A DNA stretch of 64,000 nt from Ignavibacteriota bacterium (GTDB taxonomy: Bacteria > Bacteroidota > Ignavibacteria > Tepidaquicellales > Tepidaquicellaceae), in NCBI GenBank assembly GCA_026390735.1, contig JAPLFJ010000029.1, forward strand, positions 1-64,000, given 5' to 3'. The translations under genes and the position numbers were made by a program. Shown one piece after another: positions 264 through 21,442 of the stretch. Every line of letters begins with the position of its first letter. Position 1 is the first letter of the stretch. The notes under the pieces were generated by a model. That model worked only from the letters and a program-made list of their open reading frames with translations. It did no database searches and was not told the DNA's origin.

Positions 264-383
264 GTTTGAAAAACCATTTATCTGTTGATTTTATGAAATT
301 AATCAGATAATTTTAATGAAATTCAAATTAGGGTGATATTTTAAATAAATTTTAAATTCTTTTAACTAACTAAATTGACAAAA

Positions 384-3314
384 ATGAAAAAAGCTCTCTC
401 TATTTTATCAATTTTTGTACTCGGTTTCATTATCTTTACCGGTCAAAAATTTGACAATGACAGCCCGAGATGGAACGTAAACCCTGCGATGACAAGGCTT
501 ACACCAGTCGGAAAGTATGTAGATTTACCTAGTTATCCTAATACAGGTGATTACGTAAATCCAAACACAATAACTTCTTATTACTACTCACCGAATGGTG
601 TTACAGCAGTAAGTCCAAACTTTATGGTTAAGCCATCAGTAGTTGCGGCTTCTACTCAGAGTGAAGTTAACATTACTTCGAGTTTAACAAACCCAAGTTT
701 GGTTTTAGCATCATGTAACTATTTTGATGGTGCATCAACATTTAGTACACCTGGTTATGTTTCTACAAACGGTGGATTAAATTTTGCAGGTAATGACGTA
801 TCGGTCAGTAACTATGGTGACCCTGCACCAATGATTGATAAAAATAATAATATGATTATTTCTTTTATCACATTAGCAGGTAGTATGGGTTCTACTCGTT
901 CAGTAAGTCCATACACAACCTGGTCAGCAGCTTATACTTTCCCTGGTGCATCAACAAGTGCAGATAAGAATTTATCCGGTACGAACTATGCAGCAGCAAG
1001 TCCTTATTATGGACACTCCTACACAGTTTATACAGAATTCGCAGGAACGTATATAAACAGAATAGTATTTACAAAAACAACAGACGGTGGCGTAACCTGG
1101 ACATCTATTGTTCCTTTAAGTCCAACACCTTCGTCAGGTCATCACCATCAGGGTTGTGACGTAACAGCAGGACCGGAAGGCAATGTCTATGCTATCTGGG
1201 CTAACTGTACAACAAACGGTCAGAACTCAACAGAAGATTCACTTGGCTTTGCAAAATCAACAGACGGTGGAACAACCTGGGCAATATCAAAAAATAATGC
1301 AGTAGATATGAATGGAATCAGAGCAGCATCTTTCGGCCCATGGGGTGTTAGAGTTGCAGGTTTCCCAAGAATAGACGTTGACAGAAGCGGCGGCGCAAGA
1401 AACGGTTGGATCTATGTAGTAGCTCCTCAAAAAACCGGATTAGCAAATGCAGACGCATCGGATATCTTTATGTGGAAATCAACTGACGTTGGCGTTACAT
1501 GGAGTGCTCCAATAAGAGTAAATCAGGACGCAGTCGGTTCAGGAAAATTACAATATCACGCAGCAGTTAACGTTGATGCAGGTGGTGGCGTAAACGTAGT
1601 ATATGAAGATTGCAGAAATTCAAACGCAAACGACTCAGTACAAACATATTTATCACGTTCGGTAGACGGTGGTGTAACATTTACAGACGTTTTAATCTCT
1701 GACCATAAATTCAGACCGGCTCCTATCTCAGGAACAGCAACAGGATATCAGGGTGACTACATTGGTATTACATCAGGTAATAACAAAATCATCCCTAACT
1801 GGGCAGAAAACAGAACAGGCAAATATCAAACATGGGCAGCCATAGTAGATATTGGTCCTTCAATCACACATACAGACCTTGGAAATACAGAACAAATTGC
1901 AGGTAACAGAGCAGTAAATTGTATAATTACTCCTGCGGGAAGTCCTATTACACCTGCATCAGTAAAATTGTATTATTCTTTAAATAGTCCAACACTTACT
2001 TCTTTCGTTACAATGACAAACAGTAGTGGTGATAACTGGACAGCAAACCTTCCGCTTTCAGGCGCAGGACTTTACAGATATTACATCACAGCAACAGACG
2101 GATTAGCAAGAACAGCAACATATCCTGCGGGCGCACCTGCAAACACAGTTCAGTTTACAGCATCACCTGACTTAACTCCGCCGGTTATTACAACAACTCC
2201 TATTGGACCAACACCAAAAGCAACATGGCCGATAGCAGTATCAGCTACAGTTACAGATAATATCGGTGTTGACTCTTCATGGGTTATATGGCGCATTAAT
2301 TCCGGTGTTAACAAACGTTTCAAATTAACTAACACATCAGGTAGTGTTTATTCAGCACTGTTCAATTCAGTAAACGGAGACGTAGCTGTTGGAAACACTA
2401 TTACTTACAAAATATATGCACAGGATAATTCTGCAAATCATAACAGAGATTCTTCTGCATCTATGAGTTTTAATATTATCAATCTGACTACTTCCTGCAT
2501 CGGAAACGGTACAGTTCAAATGGGAAGCGCAAGCGGTCCATTCAATACTTTCTGGTATGGAAACAGAACTAATTTACTCTGGACATCAGCTGAAATATTA
2601 GCTAATGGCGGAGCAGTTGGTAACATAACAAGAATCGGATTTGATATCGCTACAGTTGGTGGACAGGCAATGACAGGTTTAACATACAGATTCCAGAATA
2701 CAACAGCAACATCTCTTTCAGCATTCGTTTCGACTGGCTGGACAACAGCTTATTCAAACACATACACAGTTCCTGGAACAGGAATGCAATACATAGATTT
2801 AACGACACCATTCTACTGGAATGGAACAAATCTATTAATGGAAATTTGCTTCCAGAATACTTCGTATACAACAGCAACAGTTGTTAACGGTACAACTATT
2901 TCAGGAATGGAATGGACTGAATACCATGACTTATCGACAGCTTGTTCATACACAGGATTCACAGCAGGTACAGCACAGACAGCAAGAGCAAACGTATGTC
3001 TCGTGATAGCACCTGTAACAGGTATTGTTCCGAACAACGGTAATATCCCAACCAAGTTTAATTTATCACAAAACTATCCAAATCCTTTCAATCCGGTAAC
3101 CAAAATTAATTTTGCATTACCAAAACAGGGAATGGTAACTTTGAAGATTTATGACGTACTCGGAAGAGAAGTAAGAACACTCGTAAACGAAGTTAAATCA
3201 GCAGGACAGTTCTCAGTTGATTTCAACGCATCAGAATTTGCAAGTGGTGTATACTTCTACAGACTGGAATCAAACGGTTTCAGCGACATCAAGAGAATGA
3301 TGTTAATCAAGTAA
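384..3314 (+). CDS. T9SS-exported sialidase-like (Asp-box) beta-propeller protein, array copy 1
   Basis: Secreted protein of about 976 residues. The ATG at 384 is preferred over the in-frame TTG at 375 because ATGAAAAAAG and its leader (aactaaatt-acaaaa) recur in copy 2. It opens with a signal peptide (KK plus a hydrophobic stretch ending near FTG). Four Asp-box motifs (S/T-x-D-x-G-x-T-W/F: TTDGGVTW, STDGGTTW, STDVGVTW, SVDGGVTF) lie at about residues 235, 300, 370 and 430, typical of six-bladed sialidase-like propellers. Two Ig-like segments follow (about 490-700), then a module of about 180 residues starting CIGNGTV, then a type A T9SS sorting domain (about the last 75 residues). Asp-boxes mark a fold and not an activity, and no sialidase catalytic set was identified, so the role (adhesion, glycan binding or degradation) is open. 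Confidence 0.87.
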   Translation: MKKALSILSIFVLGFIIFTGQKFDNDSPRWNVNPAMTRLTPVGKYVDLPSYPNTGDYVNPNTITSYYYSPNGVTAVSPNFMVKPSVVAASTQSEVNITSSLTNPSLVLASCNYFDGASTFSTPGYVSTNGGLNFAGNDVSVSNYGDPAPMIDKNNNMIISFITLAGSMGSTRSVSPYTTWSAAYTFPGASTSADKNLSGTNYAAASPYYGHSYTVYTEFAGTYINRIVFTKTTDGGVTWTSIVPLSPTPSSGHHHQGCDVTAGPEGNVYAIWANCTTNGQNSTEDSLGFAKSTDGGTTWAISKNNAVDMNGIRAASFGPWGVRVAGFPRIDVDRSGGARNGWIYVVAPQKTGLANADASDIFMWKSTDVGVTWSAPIRVNQDAVGSGKLQYHAAVNVDAGGGVNVVYEDCRNSNANDSVQTYLSRSVDGGVTFTDVLISDHKFRPAPISGTATGYQGDYIGITSGNNKIIPNWAENRTGKYQTWAAIVDIGPSITHTDLGNTEQIAGNRAVNCIITPAGSPITPASVKLYYSLNSPTLTSFVTMTNSSGDNWTANLPLSGAGLYRYYITATDGLARTATYPAGAPANTVQFTASPDLTPPVITTTPIGPTPKATWPIAVSATVTDNIGVDSSWVIWRINSGVNKRFKLTNTSGSVYSALFNSVNGDVAVGNTITYKIYAQDNSANHNRDSSASMSFNIINLTTSCIGNGTVQMGSASGPFNTFWYGNRTNLLWTSAEILANGGAVGNITRIGFDIATVGGQAMTGLTYRFQNTTATSLSAFVSTGWTTAYSNTYTVPGTGMQYIDLTTPFYWNGTNLLMEICFQNTSYTTATVVNGTTISGMEWTEYHDLSTACSYTGFTAGTAQTARANVCLVIAPVTGIVPNNGNIPTKFNLSQNYPNPFNPVTKINFALPKQGMVTLKIYDVLGREVRTLVNEVKSAGQFSVDFNASEFASGVYFYRLESNGFSDIKRMMLIK

Positions 3315-3337
3315 GAAGGGTAAATATTTAATATAAT

Positions 3338-3368
3338 AAAGGCGGTCAAATCCAGACCGCCTTTTTTT
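3338..3368 (+). terminator. Rho-independent terminator after array copy 1
   Basis: Stem aaaggcggtc / gaccgccttt (3338-3347 with 3355-3364), 7-base loop, run of T. The ggcggtc/gaccgcc core is shared with the terminators after copies 2 and 3. Confidence 0.92.
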
Positions 3369-3581
3369 ATTCCCAAAACTGATTCAATCTTTTTAACAAA
3401 ACCACACTTCACTATTTCTCAATTGATTTTAAACTAATATTGCTTTAAATTATTATGCTATGATTAAAGTCATCATTAAGACAAACGGTTAACATCCGGG
3501 TAATTGTTTCGTTATTCTTACTTTAAATTTAGAAAAGATATTAATAACTATTATATTTTTCTATTAACTAAATTTACAAAA

Positions 3582-6503
3582 ATGAAAAAAGTTCTCTCCA
3601 CTTTGGGAATTCTTGTAATCGGTTTAATGATATTTACCGGTCAAAAATTCGAAGATAATCCCCGTTGGGTTAATAATCCCGCCTTTACTGAAATGAGGCA
3701 GGGAGTATATAATCAATTACCTGTCAATCAGGAAGTATATATACCAACAACATCACCAAGATATGTTATGTCACCTTCAGGTGTGACAGCGGTGAACCCG
3801 AGTTTCCGTGTTTTCCCTTCGACGATTACTCAGAATGAAGTTATTATAGTTTGCTGCAGGACAAATCAAAGCTGGATGTTTGCTTCTGCAAACACAATAC
3901 CAGGTTCGACTATTAATGCAGGTGATTATTATACAACTAACTCAGGTGTAAACTGGGCTGGCTTCGATTATATTAATAATGGTAACACTGCTAATCAGCG
4001 TTCGGACCCTGGTCCTGCTTACGATAAAAATGGTGTTTTGCTTTTTACGCATATTACAAGTGCGACTAATTTTGGTGCTGTTACGGGTATCGGCGGTGAG
4101 TATTCATCCAACAGAGGTGCAAACTTCTCCGCTACTTTTCAGATTGATAACAGTGCTGATGACGATAAAAACTTAGCAGGTACTGATGACAGTCCTTCGA
4201 GTCCTTACTATGGGAATTCATACGTAGCCTGGTGCAGGTTTACTGCAGGAAATTTCCCCGCTGTAATTTATGCTTCAAGAACAACAAATGGTGGCGTAAG
4301 CTGGGGTACACCTGTACTGGTGAATTCAACAAATGCAAACCACTTCTCACAGGGCTCAGACGTTTGTGTCGGTCCAAACGGATACGTTTATATAACATGG
4401 GCTCAGGAATCAAACGCAAGTCCTTATCCGGGTGACTCAATAGGTTTTGCAAGGTCTACTGACGGTGGCGTAACTTATACATCAAATAATAATGCTTTTG
4501 ACTGTGCCGGTACAAGAAGTTCTTCTTATAACGGATGGGGATTCAGAACTAATGACTTCCCGAGGATGGATGTAGATAAATCCGGCGGTTCGAGAAACGG
4601 CTGGATTTATGTAGTACGGCCGCAGATTAATCTTGCACCTGCTGGTACAGATGGAGATATAGTCTTAAACAGATCAACAGATAACGGTTTGACATGGTCT
4701 TCAGGTATCAGGGTTAATCAGGATCCGCTTAACAACGGAAAAGTTCAATGGTTCCCTGCGGTCAGAGTTGACGAATACGGCGGTGTAAACGTAATTTATT
4801 ATGATAACAGAAGTTGGGCTAATACAGGCGATTCTGCTACTATCTATGTCTCACGTTCTATTGACGGTGGAAATACTTTTACCGACATTAAATTATCAGA
4901 CCATAATTTCAAACCAAACTGGAGCACTCAGATTGGTGATTATATCGGTATCACTTCAGGTAATAATAAAGTGTGGGGAATCTGGATGGATAACAAAGCA
5001 GGTCCTTGCAACGCATGGGTTGCTTCAATAGATTTAGGTCCTACGATTAATCATACACCTCTTGGTAACACGGAGCAAACAGTTGGAAACAGAATAATTG
5101 ACGCAAGCATCATTCCTGCAGGAAGCGGTATAAATCCCTCTACTGCAAAATTGTATTATTCACAGGATAATCCGTCTATCACAACCAATATTGCCTTAAC
5201 ATATTCCAGCGGTACAAACTGGAGTGCAAATATGCCGATATACGGTCCGGGTCTTTACAGATATTATCTGATAGCAACTGACTCACTCGGAAGAACTGCA
5301 ACAGCACCTGCTGGCGCTCCTGCTAACTATTATTCTTTCATTTCTACACCAGATACTGTAAAACCTGTTATAGTTACTACACCTCTGGGAGATGTCCCAA
5401 AAACATTATGGCCAGCTACAGTTAGTGCAACAGTGACTGACAACATAGGTGTTGACTCAGTATGGGTAAAATGGTACAGGAACAACACAGGGACGGGAAT
5501 TAAACAATTCAGGCTTCCTTTCATTAGCGGATCGAACTATGGTGCAGCATTTAATTCATTAAATTCAGACGTACAATTTAACGATTCAATATTCTACAGA
5601 GTCTTTGCAAGAGATAACTCTTCAGGTCACAATGCAGACTCAACTGCACTTTACAAATTCAAGGTAATCAATCTGACAACTTCCTGTATCGGAAACGGCA
5701 CGGTTCAGATGGGAAGCGCAAGCGGTCCATTTAACACTTTCTGGTATGGAAACAGAACAAATATACTCTGGACTTCAGCTGAAATATTAGCTAATGGTGG
5801 AGCAGTAGGTAACATAACAAGAGTCGGCTTTAGTATTGCTGCCGTAGGTGGACAGGCAATGACAGGGCTGACATACAGATTCCAGAATACAACAGCGACA
5901 TCTCTTACAGGATTCACATCAACAGGATGGACAACTGCTTACTCAAACACATATACAGTCCCGGGAACAGGAATGCAATACATAGATTTAACAACACCAT
6001 TTTACTGGAATGGAACAAATCTTTTAATGGAAATTTGTTTTCAGAATACTACTTATACAACAGCAACGGTTGTTAACGGAACAACGATTTCAGGTATGGA
6101 ATGGACTGAGTACCATGACTTATCAACAGCATGTTCATACACAGGATTTACAGCTGGTACAGCACAGACCGCAAGAGCAAATGTATGTCTCGTGATATCA
6201 CCATTAACAGGTATTGTCCCGAACAACGGTAATATTCCAACAGTATATTCATTATCTCAGAACTATCCAAATCCTTTCAATCCGGTAACCAAGATTAATT
6301 TTGCATTACCAAAGCAAGGATTTGTTTCTTTAAAGATTTATGACGTACTCGGAAGAGAAGTAAGAACACTCGTAAACGAATTTAAATCTGCAGGTCAGTA
6401 TTCAGTTGATTTCAACGCCTCAGATTACTCAAGTGGTGTTTACTTCTATAGACTGGAATCGAATGGTTTCAGCGACATCAAGAGAATGATGTTAATTAAA
6501 TAA
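3582..6503 (+). CDS. T9SS-exported sialidase-like (Asp-box) beta-propeller protein, array copy 2
   Basis: Paralog of the preceding gene, about 973 residues from the ATG at 3582. The frame is open to 3504, but the signal peptide (MKKVLSTLGILVIGLMIFTG) starts at 3582. Asp-box-like motifs (TTNGGVSW, STDGGVTY, STDNGLTW, SIDGGNTF) sit at about residues 233, 291, 364 and 425. Family signatures shared by all three copies include SPYYG, D-K/R-SGG-x-RNGWIYVV and GDYIGITSGN. The region from about residue 695 to the stop (CIGNGTV module plus sorting domain) is almost identical to copy 1, with about eleven substitutions in 185 module residues by eye, whereas the propeller is far more diverged. Exported to the cell surface by T9SS; substrate unknown. 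Confidence 0.87.
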   Translation: MKKVLSTLGILVIGLMIFTGQKFEDNPRWVNNPAFTEMRQGVYNQLPVNQEVYIPTTSPRYVMSPSGVTAVNPSFRVFPSTITQNEVIIVCCRTNQSWMFASANTIPGSTINAGDYYTTNSGVNWAGFDYINNGNTANQRSDPGPAYDKNGVLLFTHITSATNFGAVTGIGGEYSSNRGANFSATFQIDNSADDDKNLAGTDDSPSSPYYGNSYVAWCRFTAGNFPAVIYASRTTNGGVSWGTPVLVNSTNANHFSQGSDVCVGPNGYVYITWAQESNASPYPGDSIGFARSTDGGVTYTSNNNAFDCAGTRSSSYNGWGFRTNDFPRMDVDKSGGSRNGWIYVVRPQINLAPAGTDGDIVLNRSTDNGLTWSSGIRVNQDPLNNGKVQWFPAVRVDEYGGVNVIYYDNRSWANTGDSATIYVSRSIDGGNTFTDIKLSDHNFKPNWSTQIGDYIGITSGNNKVWGIWMDNKAGPCNAWVASIDLGPTINHTPLGNTEQTVGNRIIDASIIPAGSGINPSTAKLYYSQDNPSITTNIALTYSSGTNWSANMPIYGPGLYRYYLIATDSLGRTATAPAGAPANYYSFISTPDTVKPVIVTTPLGDVPKTLWPATVSATVTDNIGVDSVWVKWYRNNTGTGIKQFRLPFISGSNYGAAFNSLNSDVQFNDSIFYRVFARDNSSGHNADSTALYKFKVINLTTSCIGNGTVQMGSASGPFNTFWYGNRTNILWTSAEILANGGAVGNITRVGFSIAAVGGQAMTGLTYRFQNTTATSLTGFTSTGWTTAYSNTYTVPGTGMQYIDLTTPFYWNGTNLLMEICFQNTTYTTATVVNGTTISGMEWTEYHDLSTACSYTGFTAGTAQTARANVCLVISPLTGIVPNNGNIPTVYSLSQNYPNPFNPVTKINFALPKQGFVSLKIYDVLGREVRTLVNEFKSAGQYSVDFNASDYSSGVYFYRLESNGFSDIKRMMLIK

Positions 6504-6540
6504 TTTCTGATTATAATCCTGCAAGAGCAGGAATCCATGT

Positions 6541-6568
6541 AAGGCGGTCTTTTGGGACCGCCTTTTTT
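6541..6568 (+). terminator. Rho-independent terminator after array copy 2
   Basis: Stem aaggcggtc / gaccgcctt (6541-6549 with 6556-6564), 6-base loop, T-tract. Same stem core as after copies 1 and 3. Confidence 0.92.
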
Positions 6569-6684
6569 ATTTGAAACTTTAATTGTTGTTTCCAGAGTTA
6601 TACATTTTATAGGAATAAAAATTATTTTGAGTTTTACAGTTGGAAGGAGGATAATTTTATTTCTAAACTTAAAATGGGACAACT

Positions 6685-9510
6685 ATGAAAAAAACTCTCT
6701 CCACTTTGTTCATTTTTGTTGTAGGTTTTCTAATCTTTACAGGGCAGAAAATTGATGACAGAAAATGGAATACAGACCCAAGGGTCGCATCTATTATGCC
6801 TTCGGGCGAATATACAGGTATGTTACCAGTGGTAACGCCTGTTACAAGCAAGATATTTACAGCACCAGTGGGATACAATACTCCTAATGGATTTATGCTG
6901 GTAAACCCAAACGTGAGGGTTCATCCTTCAGGGACAACCCAGTCAGAGGTGCCTATTACGAGACATCCTACAAATCAGCAGATATTATTCGCAAGTTCTA
7001 ATGCTGCAAGGATGTCGGGTTCTACACTTTCATTCATCAGTGAAGGTATGTATGTTTCAACTGACGGTGGATTAACCTGGGGTGGTTCTGACACAACTGC
7101 TGCTGCACCGCTAACTAATCACGGTGGTGACCCCGCACCTGCTATCGGTCCGAATGGTTATTTTTATCAGTCTTATTTAGGTTATACAACATCAGGTATT
7201 TTCACTTCTTATTCAACAAACAACGGTTCTACATGGGCAGCATCAAATACCGTTGTCACAGGTTCGCAGGATAAGAACCATACTTTTGTTAATGATGTTG
7301 TTGCAAGTCCTTACTACGGTAGAGTTTATGTTACCTGGTCTTTGTTTACAGCAGCGTCACCTAATTGCGTTGTTTCTTATTCGACAAACAATGGTTCAAC
7401 ATATTCAGGAGTTATCAGTGTTAATACTCCTCCATCCGGCCATTATGCGCAGGGCGTTAACGGTGCAGTGCTGCCGAACGGCGACGCAGTTATTTGCTGG
7501 CAGAGTCCGATTTCTGCATCACCATACACAGGTGATTATATAGGTTTCGGGAAATCAACTGACGGCGGAGTAACATGGGTAACTAATAATAATATTTATG
7601 ATTGTAATGGTATCAGAGGAACATTATTTGCAGCAGGTATCAGAGTAAATGATTTCCCCTGGATGGCAATTGACAGAAGCGGTGGTTCAAGAAACGGTTG
7701 GATTTATATTGTTGCAGCAGAGAAAAGTTTAGCACCTGCAGGGTCAGATGCAGACATAGTCATGCACAAGTCAACAGATGGTGGTACAACCTGGTCAGCA
7801 GGTATCAGAGTAAATCAGGATGTATTGAACAACGGTAAGGTTCAGTATATGCCGGCTTGCAGAGTTGATGAATCAGGTGGCGTTAACGTAATTTATTATG
7901 ATAACAGAAATGTTGGTGGCGATTCTGTTCAGGTATATGTATCACGTTCAGTAGATGGCGGCTCAACATTCTCAGATGTATTAGTCTCAGACCATAGTTT
8001 CAAACCTGGTTCTATTCCTGGTTTAGCAGGTGGCTATCAGGGAGATTATATTGGCATTACTTCAGGCAATAGCAAAATATACGCTTACTGGTCAGATAAT
8101 TCAAGCGGTCTATACCAGGCATGGATAAGTACAATCGATTTAGGCCCGGCAATCTCTCATACCAACCTTGGAAATACAGAACAAACAACGGGAACAAGGG
8201 TAGTTAATTGTGTAATTACCCCTGCAGGAAGTCCAATAAATCCAACAACAGTAAAATTGTATTATTCATTGAATAATCCGACTCTTACATCAAACGTATC
8301 ACTAACAAACAGCAGCGGTAATAACTGGTCTGCAAACCTGCCTATGTCAGGTGCAGGCCTTTACAGATATTACATTACAGCAACAGATAATTTAAGCAGA
8401 ACAGTTACATATCCTGCAGGAGCTCCTGCAAATACTGTATCATTTATTGCATCACCTGATACTGTAAAACCTGTAATAGTCTACACACCTTTAGCAAACC
8501 AACCCAAACAATCCTGGCCGGTGAATGTTTCAGCTTCGGTTACAGATAATATTGGAGTCGATTCCGTTTGGGTAAGATGGTATAAAAATAACACGGGAAC
8601 CGGTGTGAAACAGTTCAGACTAAATTTCACAAGCGGTACTAACTATTCATCATTGTTTAATTCAATTAATTCCGATGTAACACCCGGCGATTCTATTTTC
8701 TATCGTATTGTAGCCCAGGATAATTCATCAAACCATAACAGAGATTCTTCCGTGATGAATAGATTTGCTATAACAAATGTTGTCTCGACAAGCGTTTGCA
8801 GAAATGTATTTATTCCGATAAGAGATAATGTTACTAATTATGACAGTTTCCAGGTTGGAACACATTCTAATATCATAAAGGTTAATTTCACTATGGTCGA
8901 CCTGGTTCATACATGGGATGGTGATGTAACATTTTCTTTGAGGTCACCTTCAGGAACTGAAATAGTTCTTTCTGCTAACCATGGCAGCAGCGGTGATAAC
9001 TATACTAACACTTTGTTTAACGATTCAGCAACTTCACCAATCGCAGGAGGCACGCCACCGTATACAGGGACGTTTAATCCTGATAATCCACTTTCTGCTT
9101 TCGCGAATCAGGATCCTTTCGGATGGTGGAGATTCAGTGTTAATGATAATGCTGCAAGTGATACCGGGCACATTAGTCAGTATTGTGTGCAGATATTCGC
9201 CGGTGGTTTGGTAACCGGCACCAATAATAATGGTCAGGTTCTTCCTGTAAAATATGCATTGTCACAAAACTATCCGAATCCCTTCAACCCGGTAACAAAG
9301 ATAAATTTTGCATTGCCAAAACAAGGATTGGTTAATCTGAAAATATACGATATTCTTGGCAGGGAAGTTAAGACACTGGTAAATGAATTCAAATCACCGG
9401 GAGAATATTCTGTTGATTTCAATGGTTCAGATTTAGCCAGCGGAATTTACTTCTATAGGCTGGAATCGAATGGTTTCAGCGACATCAAGAGAATGATGTT
9501 AATCAAGTAA
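6685..9510 (+). CDS. T9SS-exported Asp-box propeller with P-domain, array copy 3
   Basis: Third complete paralog, 941 residues, with signal peptide MKKTLSTLFIFVVGFLIFTG. Five Asp-box-like motifs (YSTNNGSTW, YSTNNGSTY, STDGGVTW, STDGGTTW, SVDGGSTF) lie at about residues 174, 231, 290, 361 and 421. The Ig-like segments match copies 1 and 2. At about 704-843 the CIGNGTV module is absent and a proprotein-convertase P-domain (P/Homo B) stands in its place: HTWDGDVTFSLRSPSGTEI, NPLSAFANQDPFGWWRFSV and a closing DTGHISQYCVQIF. A type A sorting domain follows (about 857-941). P-domains usually accompany secreted proteases or act as stand-alone beta-sandwich modules; no protease domain is present here. 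A four-codon ORF (ATG 6674) overlaps the start as ATGA, and an AAGGAGG at 6644-6650 is too far upstream to serve 6685. Confidence 0.87.
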   Translation: MKKTLSTLFIFVVGFLIFTGQKIDDRKWNTDPRVASIMPSGEYTGMLPVVTPVTSKIFTAPVGYNTPNGFMLVNPNVRVHPSGTTQSEVPITRHPTNQQILFASSNAARMSGSTLSFISEGMYVSTDGGLTWGGSDTTAAAPLTNHGGDPAPAIGPNGYFYQSYLGYTTSGIFTSYSTNNGSTWAASNTVVTGSQDKNHTFVNDVVASPYYGRVYVTWSLFTAASPNCVVSYSTNNGSTYSGVISVNTPPSGHYAQGVNGAVLPNGDAVICWQSPISASPYTGDYIGFGKSTDGGVTWVTNNNIYDCNGIRGTLFAAGIRVNDFPWMAIDRSGGSRNGWIYIVAAEKSLAPAGSDADIVMHKSTDGGTTWSAGIRVNQDVLNNGKVQYMPACRVDESGGVNVIYYDNRNVGGDSVQVYVSRSVDGGSTFSDVLVSDHSFKPGSIPGLAGGYQGDYIGITSGNSKIYAYWSDNSSGLYQAWISTIDLGPAISHTNLGNTEQTTGTRVVNCVITPAGSPINPTTVKLYYSLNNPTLTSNVSLTNSSGNNWSANLPMSGAGLYRYYITATDNLSRTVTYPAGAPANTVSFIASPDTVKPVIVYTPLANQPKQSWPVNVSASVTDNIGVDSVWVRWYKNNTGTGVKQFRLNFTSGTNYSSLFNSINSDVTPGDSIFYRIVAQDNSSNHNRDSSVMNRFAITNVVSTSVCRNVFIPIRDNVTNYDSFQVGTHSNIIKVNFTMVDLVHTWDGDVTFSLRSPSGTEIVLSANHGSSGDNYTNTLFNDSATSPIAGGTPPYTGTFNPDNPLSAFANQDPFGWWRFSVNDNAASDTGHISQYCVQIFAGGLVTGTNNNGQVLPVKYALSQNYPNPFNPVTKINFALPKQGLVNLKIYDILGREVKTLVNEFKSPGEYSVDFNGSDLASGIYFYRLESNGFSDIKRMMLIK

Positions 9511-18137: not shown

Positions 18138-20060
18138 ATGAACGATTTTGTTTTTAAACCTTTTGATGAAATGACAGATGACGACTACCAGCAAGTGGGC
18201 TTTATGTCTGGTCTGGAAATTCATCAGCAACTTCTAACCGAAAAGAAACTCTTTTGCCGCTGTCCGGCGGGAATGTATAACCAAAAATTTGATGCAGAGA
18301 TTTTAAGGCATATGAGGCCTACTCTTTCAGAACTTGGCGAGTATGACGGTACAGCTTTAATGGAGTTTAAAACTAAGAAAGATATTATATATCATATTAA
18401 CAGGGATACGGTCTGCACTTATGAAATGGATGATACACCTCCTTTTGAAATCAATGAACAGGCACTGGATATTGCTCTTGAGATTGCATTGCTGTATCAG
18501 AGTGCAACTACGGATGAAATTCATATTGCGAGAAAGCAGTATCTAGACGGAAGTATTCCTACAGGTTTTCAGAGAACGGCAATCGTCAGCATTGGCGGAA
18601 AGATTCCTTACAAAGACAGAATGATAGATATTATTCAACTCTCGATTGAAGAGGATTCCTGCCGTGAAGTTAGCGATGTGGGGCATCGCAGAGTTTACAT
18701 TGCGGACAGGCTTGGAATGCCGCTGCTGGAAACTGTTACTGCACCTGATATGAAGACTCCGGTTGAAGTAGCAGAAGTTGGAAAGATACTAAGTAACATA
18801 GTAAAGAGTACAGGAAAAGTAAGAACAGGTGCCGGTGCTGCGAGGGAAGATGTAAACGTCAGCGTAACGGGCGGAACAAGGATTGAAATTAAAGGTGTGC
18901 CGAGTCTGAAGAGAATACCTTTACTTACGTACAATGAAGCAATGAGACAATGGAATTTACTTAGACTCAGGGAAGAACTTAAGAAAAGAGAAATTACAAC
19001 TGAAATTTTCAGGTCGAAATCAGACCACGTAACACGACTTTTAAGAAAGACAACTTATACACCTATTGCTGCTGCATTGCAGGAGGAAAAAGTTGTTGGT
19101 TCTGTCATTCTTCGCGGTTTCAAGGGATTACTGAACTGGCAGACGCAGACCGAAACATATTTCTCGAAAGAGATTTCTGACAGAGTTAGAGTCGTTGCCT
19201 GTTTAACAACATTGCCGAATATAATTCATTCTGATAGTACTTCGGAAACGATTTCGATTGCAGAGTGGCAAAAAGTGAAAAAAGCAATTGGTGCAACTGA
19301 TAAGGATACTGTTGTAATTGTCTGGGGAAATTCAATGGATGTGGATACTGCTATGAAAGAGATTGCCATCCGCGCAAAAGAAGCAACTTTAGGTGTACCT
19401 TCAGAAACCCGTCAGGCATTAAAAGATGGCACAACAGGTTTTGAAAGAATACTCCCTGGTCCTGAAAGAATGTATCCCGATACAGATTTACCACCAAAGA
19501 GAATCCCCGATGAAAGAATTGCAAAGATTAAATCACAATTGCCGGAATACTATTGGGAAAGGGTTAAGTGGTATAAGAAACTCGGAGTACCGCAGGACTG
19601 TATAGAACCTCTTGCAATTTCAAAACTTGCACTGCTTTTTAAAAAAGCCGTGAAGGAATTCGGGGTTAATCCGAAATTGGTTGCAGTGGTTTTAATCCAG
19701 CTTCCGAAACGCCTGAAGAAAATGCAGGTTGAGTTTGAAAGCATTGAAGAGAATGTCTTTGAAGGATTGCTGAGAGCATATAAAGAAGGACTTGTTGCTA
19801 AAGAGGGAATTCTTCCTGCTCTTTATGATGCAGTGAAGTATGGTGTGTTTGACCTTGATAATTTACCTCCTCCGATTGAAGATAAAGACATAAAAGGTTT
19901 TGTAGAAAACAGTCTTACTGAAATAAGAGTAAAAACATTACGCGATGAAGATAATTTTGAAGCAGTTTATAAGGGAATTGTGATGAATAAAGTCCGGGGC
20001 AGGATTGACGGAACGGTTGTTTCAAAAGCAGTTATAAAATACGTAAAGGAGATTAAATAA
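18138..20060 (+). CDS. gatE: Archaeal-type Glu-tRNA(Gln) amidotransferase subunit E (GatE)
   Basis: 640 residues, the size of archaeal GatE and much longer than bacterial GatB (about 480). GatE binds Glu-tRNA(Gln), activates the glutamate with ATP and transfers ammonia to make Gln-tRNA(Gln). Seen: GatB/E signature GFMSGLEIHQQL near residue 24 with a nearby CRCP, kinase-core motifs (YLDGSIPTGFQRT, EEDSCREV, TGAGAAREDVNVSV), an insertion at about 270-420 in the place of the GAD domain that separates GatE from GatB, the GatE-type GFERILPGPERMYPDTD, and a YqeY-like helical tail (VAKEGILPALYDAVKYG). It overlaps gatD by one base (TAATG). GatE is regarded as an archaeal protein, so its presence among clearly bacterial genes suggests transfer or an old lineage trait. 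Confidence 0.92.
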   Translation: MNDFVFKPFDEMTDDDYQQVGFMSGLEIHQQLLTEKKLFCRCPAGMYNQKFDAEILRHMRPTLSELGEYDGTALMEFKTKKDIIYHINRDTVCTYEMDDTPPFEINEQALDIALEIALLYQSATTDEIHIARKQYLDGSIPTGFQRTAIVSIGGKIPYKDRMIDIIQLSIEEDSCREVSDVGHRRVYIADRLGMPLLETVTAPDMKTPVEVAEVGKILSNIVKSTGKVRTGAGAAREDVNVSVTGGTRIEIKGVPSLKRIPLLTYNEAMRQWNLLRLREELKKREITTEIFRSKSDHVTRLLRKTTYTPIAAALQEEKVVGSVILRGFKGLLNWQTQTETYFSKEISDRVRVVACLTTLPNIIHSDSTSETISIAEWQKVKKAIGATDKDTVVIVWGNSMDVDTAMKEIAIRAKEATLGVPSETRQALKDGTTGFERILPGPERMYPDTDLPPKRIPDERIAKIKSQLPEYYWERVKWYKKLGVPQDCIEPLAISKLALLFKKAVKEFGVNPKLVAVVLIQLPKRLKKMQVEFESIEENVFEGLLRAYKEGLVAKEGILPALYDAVKYGVFDLDNLPPPIEDKDIKGFVENSLTEIRVKTLRDEDNFEAVYKGIVMNKVRGRIDGTVVSKAVIKYVKEIK

Positions 20061-21442
20061 TGGCTGACGATTATAAAGGATATAAAGACGAAGCATTAGC
20101 AGTATTAATGAAATATGAAGCAATGGTATGGTGTGACGTTGTGGTATCAACTGCACAGACTAATTTTATAGGAATTATTCTTCCTCGTTCCGAAACATCT
20201 GACCACTTGCACATAGTTTTGAAATTGCGTTCGGGCTATAATGTTGGAATACTTGCTGATAAAGTTACAGATATTAAAATTGAAGGCAGAAAAGAAGCTA
20301 TATACAAAATTCCTGAGAAGGAGTTTCCTTATGACCCTGTAAAACCTAACGTGAAACTGCTGGGTACAGGCGGTACGATTGCCAGCAGACTGGATTACAG
20401 AACAGGGGCAGTTATTCCTGCCTTTACTCCCGGAGAACTTTACGGTTCGGTCCCTGAACTTGCTGATATTTGTAATCTTGATACTGAGAAACTTTATGGC
20501 GTGTTCAGTGAGAATATGGGACCTGAACAATGGAAAGGAACAGCTCTTGCAATTGGTAAAGCTATTGAATCAGGAGTCGCAGGAATTGTTGTAGGACACG
20601 GAACGGATACAATGCACCACACTGCAGCGATACTTTCGTTTATGGTACAGAATTCACCCGTGCCTATTGTGATGGTTGGCTCGCAGCGTTCAAGCGACAG
20701 ACCTTCATCCGATGCAGCTTTGAATTTAATGTACAGCGTGAAGACCGCAGCAGAAAGTGACATCGCAGAGGTACTCGTATGTATGTTTGGTCCGACTTCT
20801 GATGAATATGGATTGCTTCACAGAGGTACGAGGGTAAGAAAAATGCATTCTTCTTACCGTTCGACTTTCAGAACGATTGGTGATATACCTGTGGCGATGG
20901 TAAGCAGAAAAGAAATCACACCTTTGAGACAGGATTATAAGAGGCGCCGCAGTGACAAGAATGTAATTATAAATACTGCGTTTGAAGAAAAAGTAGGAAT
21001 AGTATATTACTACCCGAACATGAAACCTGATGTGATTGATTCACTCATTGATAACGGTTACAGAGGGATTGTTATTGCAGGTACCGGATTAGGTCACGTA
21101 AATAAACCTCTTTATCCTGCACTTCAGAGAGCGAAAGAAAAAAACATTGCTGTATACATGACAGTTCAGACTCTTTGGGGTTATGTCCAGATGTACGTTT
21201 ATGATACAGGCCGAGATATGATGGAACTTGGAGTTGTGCCTACTGCTAATATGCTTCCGGAAGTTGCATACGTTAAACTTGGATGGGCGCTCGGCCAGAC
21301 AGATGATATGGAAGAAGTTAAGAGAATTATGCTTACTCCTATAAACGGTGAGATAACAGAACGCGAACCGAGTAACGGTTATTTAATATATCAGGGAGGT
21401 ATTCCTGAAGTAGAAGAATTTATTTCAAAACACAGAAAATAG
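20060..21442 (+). CDS. gatD: Archaeal-type Glu-tRNA(Gln) amidotransferase subunit D (GatD)
   Basis: 460 residues, usual for GatD. The asparaginase-like subunit releases ammonia from glutamine (or asparagine) and channels it to GatE. The first 90 residues form the small GatD-specific beta domain that plain asparaginases lack. The asparaginase core keeps the catalytic set: Thr103 in GTGGTIAS, Thr182-Asp183 in GHGTDT and Lys261 in RVRKMHSS. The start overlaps the gatE stop by one base, implying coupled translation and a 1:1 complex. A good terminator follows. A stand-alone L-asparaginase is excluded by the N-terminal domain and the gatE partner. Confidence 0.93.
   Translation: MADDYKGYKDEALAVLMKYEAMVWCDVVVSTAQTNFIGIILPRSETSDHLHIVLKLRSGYNVGILADKVTDIKIEGRKEAIYKIPEKEFPYDPVKPNVKLLGTGGTIASRLDYRTGAVIPAFTPGELYGSVPELADICNLDTEKLYGVFSENMGPEQWKGTALAIGKAIESGVAGIVVGHGTDTMHHTAAILSFMVQNSPVPIVMVGSQRSSDRPSSDAALNLMYSVKTAAESDIAEVLVCMFGPTSDEYGLLHRGTRVRKMHSSYRSTFRTIGDIPVAMVSRKEITPLRQDYKRRRSDKNVIINTAFEEKVGIVYYYPNMKPDVIDSLIDNGYRGIVIAGTGLGHVNKPLYPALQRAKEKNIAVYMTVQTLWGYVQMYVYDTGRDMMELGVVPTANMLPEVAYVKLGWALGQTDDMEEVKRIMLTPINGEITEREPSNGYLIYQGGIPEVEEFISKHRK

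Follow-up and report, generated by a model that had tools for sequence, protein, structure and literature searches.

The GatE–GatD gene pair

Two adjacent genes in a 64,000-nucleotide stretch of the genome of an Ignavibacteriota bacterium (contig JAPLFJ010000029.1, positions 1 to 64,000, referred to here as the window) encode GatE and GatD, the subunits of the GatDE amidotransferase of archaea. In this family GatD hydrolyses glutamine or asparagine, while phosphorylation and amidation of tRNA-bound glutamate fall to GatE. The contig is 139 kb long, and the host genome (4.02 Mb) is 97% complete. Both open reading frames (ORFs) lie on one strand and have base 20060 in common (Table 1). The original prediction, made from the letters of the window, described an intact pair of 640 and 460 residues with a one-base overlap, and both proteins exceed the cut-offs of the matching NCBIfam equivalog models. 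GatE scored 537.6 and 468.5 bits (cut-offs 456 and 319.6) and GatD 514.5 and 510.9 bits (cut-offs 310 and 324), while the GatB equivalog models match GatE at 48–138 bits. By sequence, the closest solved structures are 1zq1 and 2d6f, whose GatE and GatD chains align over nearly the full length. When structures were compared, GatD ranked first for the GatD protein, followed by asparaginases.

The GC contents of gatE (0.398) and gatD (0.411), and the codon usage of both, are within the range of the neighbouring genes. A close relative (L007) shares the NUDIX and TonB genes that follow the pair downstream. Complete chromosomes are found among the related records (L015, CP054675.1; L044, CP053447.1). 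A chimera with archaeal DNA, raised together with the original prediction as a possible artefact, is thus disfavoured: normal composition, synteny shared with relatives and two complete bacterial chromosomes all speak against it.

Domains and conserved residues

The AlphaFold2 (AF2) model of GatE, built from 44 bacterial sequences (mean predicted local distance difference test score, pLDDT, 81), aligned best in VIA to 2d6f_D (Z 33.1) and 1zq1_C (Z 29.4). Structure comparison of this model bore out the mid-protein insertion, which is of the aspartyl-tRNA synthetase (AspRS) type, and the YqeY-like tail that had been noticed earlier. Cradle residues E27, H29, E171 and E172, the presumed metal/ATP-site residues by analogy with GatB, and the GFQR motif are the same in the bacterial proteins and in three archaeal ones. 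The predicted GatD catalytic set (T103, T182, D183 and K261) is likewise present, and is identical in all 70 bacterial GatD proteins compared. The residues required for GatDE catalysis all appear intact.

The GatE tail is predicted to adopt a helical fold, with structural matches to YqeY and to the N-terminal domain of glutaminyl-tRNA synthetase (GlnRS). At 70–85% cradle identity the GatE tails are 27–32% identical, compared with 51–69% for GatB tails of these lineages at equal cradle identity, and their charge is +5.5 versus +1.2 for the GatB tail. In archaea, the GatE tail is the part that reads the elbow of tRNA-Gln (PMC4810234).

Bacterial GatD ends in a tail, REPSNGYLIYQGGIPEVEEFISKHRK, in which 69% of positions are conserved at 97% or more across the 70 proteins; its spacing from the stop codon never varies. 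The family models and the solved archaeal GatD chains (435 and 438 residues) stop near the start of this tail, and searches of Pfam and the Protein Data Bank (PDB) with it gave no significant match. It is not placed in the monomer model (pLDDT about 40), and docking on GatE or on another partner would fit this low confidence.

Table 1. Positions of the two genes and their domains in the window.
Feature	Position	Strand	Evidence
gatE, GatE family (kinase/transamidase and tRNA-binding subunit), 640 aa	18138..20060	+	ORF; NCBIfam NF003107/TIGR00134 above cut-off; PDB 1zq1_C, 2d6f_C; AF2 model
GatE cradle, residues 1–295, GatB_N catalytic domain	18138..19022	+	Pfam PF02934; conservation
GatE AspRS-like insertion domain, residues about 288–418	18999..19391	+	VIA Z 11–14 to AspRS structures
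GatE tail domain, residues 501–640, predicted helical, GatB/YqeY-like, basic, sequence-variable in bacteria	19638..20057	+	PF02637 below cut-off; pLDDT about 75–95; conservation, charge
gatD, GatD family (ammonia-releasing asparaginase-type subunit), 460 aa	20060..21442	+	ORF; equivalogs; Pfam; PDB
GatD-specific N-terminal domain, residues 27–73	20138..20278	+	Pfam PF18195
Asparaginase N-terminal domain with T103, T182, D183, K261	20348..20923	+	Pfam PF00710; tetrad same in 70/70
Asparaginase C-terminal domain, residues 311–424	20990..21331	+	Pfam PF17763
Bacterial-specific GatD C-terminal tail, residues 435–460, REPSNGYLIYQGGIPEVEEFISKHRK	21362..21439	+	Conservation over 70 proteins

Aminoacylation equipment and tRNA-Gln of the host

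Besides GatDE, the host possesses a complete direct route to Gln-tRNA, and it lacks GatCAB. Its GlnRS gene is intact and adjoins the gene for glutamyl-tRNA synthetase (GluRS, gltX) on contig 42, and both asparaginyl-tRNA synthetase (AsnRS) and AspRS are encoded. A search of the host genome with PF02934 (GatB_N) returned a single match, GatE itself; neither GatB (PF02934) nor an amidase-family GatA (PF01425) was found there. Similarly, the only match to the asparaginase family (PF00710) is GatD itself. A replacement of GlnRS by GatDE, as had been proposed, is excluded by the intact GlnRS beside gltX. The idea that GatDE replaced GatCAB holds by half at most: GatA and GatB are indeed missing from the host, but GatB is kept in 19 of 43 other genomes with GatE.

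Two host tRNA-Gln genes (anticodons CUG and UUG) were identified by ARAGORN, each with U1-A72 and A73. The tRNA-Gln(UUG) of related genomes has U1-A72 too, including four Aminicenantes/Acidobacteriota cases where the ARAGORN call begins one base too soon and correcting the register restores the pair. The original prediction had assigned U1:A72 to archaeal substrates, which is the reverse of the published situation: the archaeal pair is A1:U72 (PMC9499178) and U1-A72 is the bacterial one (PMC9976931).

Throughout the host's order the discriminator of tRNA-Gln is A73, with or without GlnRS (in the host, L143:101-172 and L136:1500-1572), and it is G73 in other GatDE lineages. G73 is the base reported for bacterial GlnRS identity, so GlnRS in the host's order must accept A73. 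Co-adaptation of tRNA-Gln to GatDE was considered and rejected, as A73 marks the host's family and order with or without GatDE, with G73 elsewhere; tRNA-Gln is essentially alike in the GatDE and the GatCAB genomes of this order.

The type of GluRS

Arg358 of Thermus thermophilus GluRS has been called specific to the discriminating enzyme (PMC3927822). Arg occupies this position in the GluRS of every GatE genome tested, and Tyr occupies it in 12 of 12 GatCAB-only genomes tested from the host's family. Three members of the sister family have one GluRS copy with Arg and one with Tyr. The sister-family genomes with these two copies (L232, L233, L234, L235, L267 and L268) carry GatCAB and lack GlnRS, as though one copy charged tRNA-Glu while tRNA-Gln were left to its partner.

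The host GluRS is about 46–53% identical to those of GatCAB-only family members, and 70–91% identical to those of GlnRS-bearing members and of G004, a genome in which neither GlnRS nor GatCAB was found. The nearest PDB entries are 6brl and 6b1z, which are presumably Elizabethkingia GluRS structures. Most sampled Bacteroidetes have no gatCAB and a discriminating GluRS (PMC3927822). These comparisons predict that the host GluRS is discriminating. The marker is not absolute, since Arg is likewise found in three GatE genomes that lack GlnRS, and the residue at this position is reported to have no effect in GluRS1 of Helicobacter pylori (PMC3927822).

Distribution among bacteria

A genome scan found relatives encoded in 97 stretches, and the best 80 loci, all bacterial, were taken up. 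Related loci thus occur in at least 80 bacterial genomes, mostly of Ignavibacteria and Kapabacteria; other records are labelled KSB1, Aminicenantes, Acidobacteriota, Marinimicrobia and Chlorobiota, although such labels on metagenome-assembled genomes are not always reliable. In all 71 loci that hold both genes, gatE and gatD are co-oriented, and they mostly overlap or abut. No further conserved neighbour gene was found around the pair in these 71 loci.

Of 43 genomes picked for having GatE, a sample without a background rate for distant phyla, 40 encode GlnRS (39 above the cut-off and one split), and AsnRS is above the cut-off in 41. The three lacking GlnRS all have GatB (GatCAB), as do the two lacking AsnRS, and each genome without GatB has both synthetases. 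Every one of the 43 therefore has GlnRS or GatB, and likewise AsnRS or GatB, so in none of them is GatDE the sole source of Gln-tRNA or of Asn-tRNA. GatDE as the only glutamine route was rejected on these grounds. The original prediction had also offered a lineage-specific second route. A second route is the best fit, though not one peculiar to this lineage, as it belongs to a bacterial clade that was seen in no fewer than 80 genomes.

Three of the genomes (G075, G077 and G080; L222, L224 and L228) have GatDE, GatCAB and AsnRS, no GlnRS, and a single GluRS of the Arg358 type. Without GlnRS, they must glutamylate tRNA-Gln, which makes them the best natural test of whether Gln-tRNA is a product of GatDE.

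Among 39 relatives of the host, GlnRS is present in 8 of 9 genomes with GatE versus 2 of 30 without it (Fisher 6e-6). The ninth is 77% complete and gave no GluRS matches either. An AspRS tree places three GatE changes and four GlnRS changes on these genomes, leaving 2–3 independent contrasts, and a claim of statistical coupling between GatDE and GlnRS was dropped for this reason.

Evolution and selection

In a tree, a long stem separates the 79 bacterial GatE sequences, which all group in a single clan, from the three archaeal sequences, one of which is frameshifted. This separation, seen against three archaeal sequences, lends no support to a recent transfer from a known archaeon. Bacteria and the three archaea have 94 GatE positions in common, and a further 29 are fixed differently, many of them in the cradle and the AspRS-like insert.

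The ratio of non-synonymous to synonymous substitution rates (dN/dS) in six close pairs is 0.02–0.035 for the GatE cradle and 0.06–0.15 for its tail; the values for the tail of L021/L035 and for L051/L079 were dropped as alignment artefacts. All close pairs that allowed an estimate for GatD gave 0.014–0.043. Both subunits are under strong purifying selection. The original prediction was right in its central claim that a bacterial chromosome carries an intact, coupled GatDE of archaeal type.

Two scans of viral contigs found no relative. A scan of plasmids gave one full-length archaeal GatE, the frameshifted Natrinema copy. This GatE-like gene lies on a haloarchaeal plasmid (L332:1501-3104; Natrinema thermotolerans, CP031304.1), is split over two frames and unannotated, and is probably a broken copy.

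Function of bacterial GatDE

The reading we prefer, to which we give about an even chance, is a working bacterial GatDE that stands beside GlnRS and amidates stray Glu-tRNA(Gln) as a second or clean-up route; its reaction, substrate and role are what we infer. GatD would free ammonia from glutamine or asparagine, GatE would spend ATP on activating the glutamate side chain on tRNA-Gln, and the ammonia would turn Glu-tRNA(Gln) into Gln-tRNA(Gln). The target would be Glu-tRNA(Gln) arising when GluRS (or GlnRS) mischarges tRNA-Gln, a task that GatCAB would perform if the host had one. Support comes from the equivalog scores, the matches to solved GatDE structures, the catalytic tetrad, the 94 GatE positions in common with the three archaea, the low dN/dS, the gene pairing and the predicted folded, basic tail of GatE. 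The co-occurrence with GlnRS (40/43; 8/9 versus 2/30) fits a role around tRNA-Gln. Several observations weigh against this reading. Little Glu-tRNA(Gln) should arise in a cell with GlnRS and a GluRS predicted to be discriminating (Arg at the Arg358 position in every GatE genome tested). The GatE tail, the presumed tRNA-elbow reader, evolves far faster than that of GatB, and no adaptation of tRNA-Gln to GatDE was found. The link between GatDE and GlnRS is not significant once phylogeny is counted, and one genome (G008; L202, 93% complete) has GlnRS with neither GatDE nor GatCAB, which suggests that GatDE can be lost.

In the main rival reading, the amidotransferase chassis would have been kept and its substrate changed, so that GatDE amidates a target other than Glu-tRNA(Gln), or a newly recognised tRNA, with the C-terminal tail of GatD docking the substrate or a partner. 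We regard this as rather unlikely; and a re-purposed GatDE, re-targeted to another aminoacyl-tRNA or to a non-tRNA substrate, with the new GatD tail serving recognition or partner binding, is a tentative suggestion of the same standing. It is favoured by the predicted discriminating GluRS, by GatDE never being the sole Gln or Asn route in the 43 genomes, by the 29 differently fixed positions and the long stem of the bacterial clan, by the relaxed tail of GatE relative to GatB, and by the near-invariant GatD tail, for which the structures and models checked show no archaeal equivalent. However, the GatE tail is still predicted to be helical, is basic and is under purifying selection, the joint occurrence of GatDE and GlnRS suggests a link with tRNA-Gln, no conserved neighbour gene hints at another substrate, and the archaeal comparison consists of three sequences. 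Doubtful, and less probable again, is a GluRS that is non-discriminating in practice, with GatDE providing a full second supply of Gln-tRNA(Gln). The three genomes without GlnRS that combine an Arg358 GluRS with GatCAB show that the residue alone is no proof of discrimination; it reportedly had no effect in H. pylori GluRS1 (PMC3927822), and archaeal GatDE increases the affinity of its GluRS for tRNA-Gln (PMC9499178). Against this stand the perfect split between Arg (GatE genomes tested) and Tyr (GatCAB-only genomes with a single GluRS), and the position of the host GluRS nearest to 6brl and 6b1z, together with the discriminating GluRS of most sampled Bacteroidetes without gatCAB (PMC3927822).

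GatB-type enzymes are capable of both reactions, and the AspRS-like insert could be read as a sign that GatDE makes Asn-tRNA(Asn) from Asp-tRNA(Asn). This is very improbable and was rejected on the presence of AsnRS, which is found in 41 of the 43 GatE genomes (the other two have GatB) and, with AspRS, in the host. Hardly more credible are leftover or decaying genes, an archaeal contig chimera, or GatD acting as a mere cellular asparaginase. The last gains something from GatD being the only PF00710 match in the host genome, but both subunits have dN/dS values far under 1, the pair is retained in 71 loci, and the two complete chromosomes, the normal GC and codon usage and the downstream synteny argue against decay or a chimera.

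Elsewhere in the window (375–9510), three related proteins of 941–999 residues are encoded in tandem, each with a C-terminal sorting domain of the NYPNPFNP type.

Comparison with known systems

The archaeal GatDE of Pyrococcus abyssi (1zq1) and Methanothermobacter thermautotrophicus (2d6f) has the same subunits, domain order, catalytic residues, AspRS-like insert and tail domain as the bacterial pair. Unlike in the archaeal setting, the bacterial host has GlnRS and a tRNA-Gln with U1-A72 rather than A1-U72, and the bacterial proteins differ in the extra C-terminal tail of GatD, the 29 differently fixed positions, the faster GatE tail and their separate clan. GatB of bacterial GatCAB and GatE have the cradle and tail in common, and the reaction class is the same; in GatDE, however, the ammonia-releasing subunit is the asparaginase-type GatD and not an amidase, and the AspRS-like insert distinguishes GatE from GatB. 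The MurT/GatD amidotransferase of peptidoglycan (PMC6085368) is a different enzyme, with only the name GatD in common.

According to a 2022 review (PMC9499178), archaea are the only organisms in which GatDE now occurs; from this the review develops an argument about the last universal common ancestor (LUCA) and about GlnRS never having entered archaea. No report of a bacterial GatDE was found in the literature searched (open-licence papers), while such genes can already be named in sequence databases through the NCBIfam models. A bacterial GatDE clade that coexists with GlnRS and a U1-A72 tRNA-Gln contradicts the claim of an archaea-only GatDE, and it undercuts the notion of a GatDE bound to archaeal tRNA-Gln and excluding GlnRS. 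It also provides a natural test of what such an amidotransferase does when glutamine codons do not need it. Deinococcus, Thermus and Bdellovibrio likewise combine GlnRS, the direct synthetase, with an amidotransferase (PMC4206432); theirs is GatCAB, and the one described here is GatDE.

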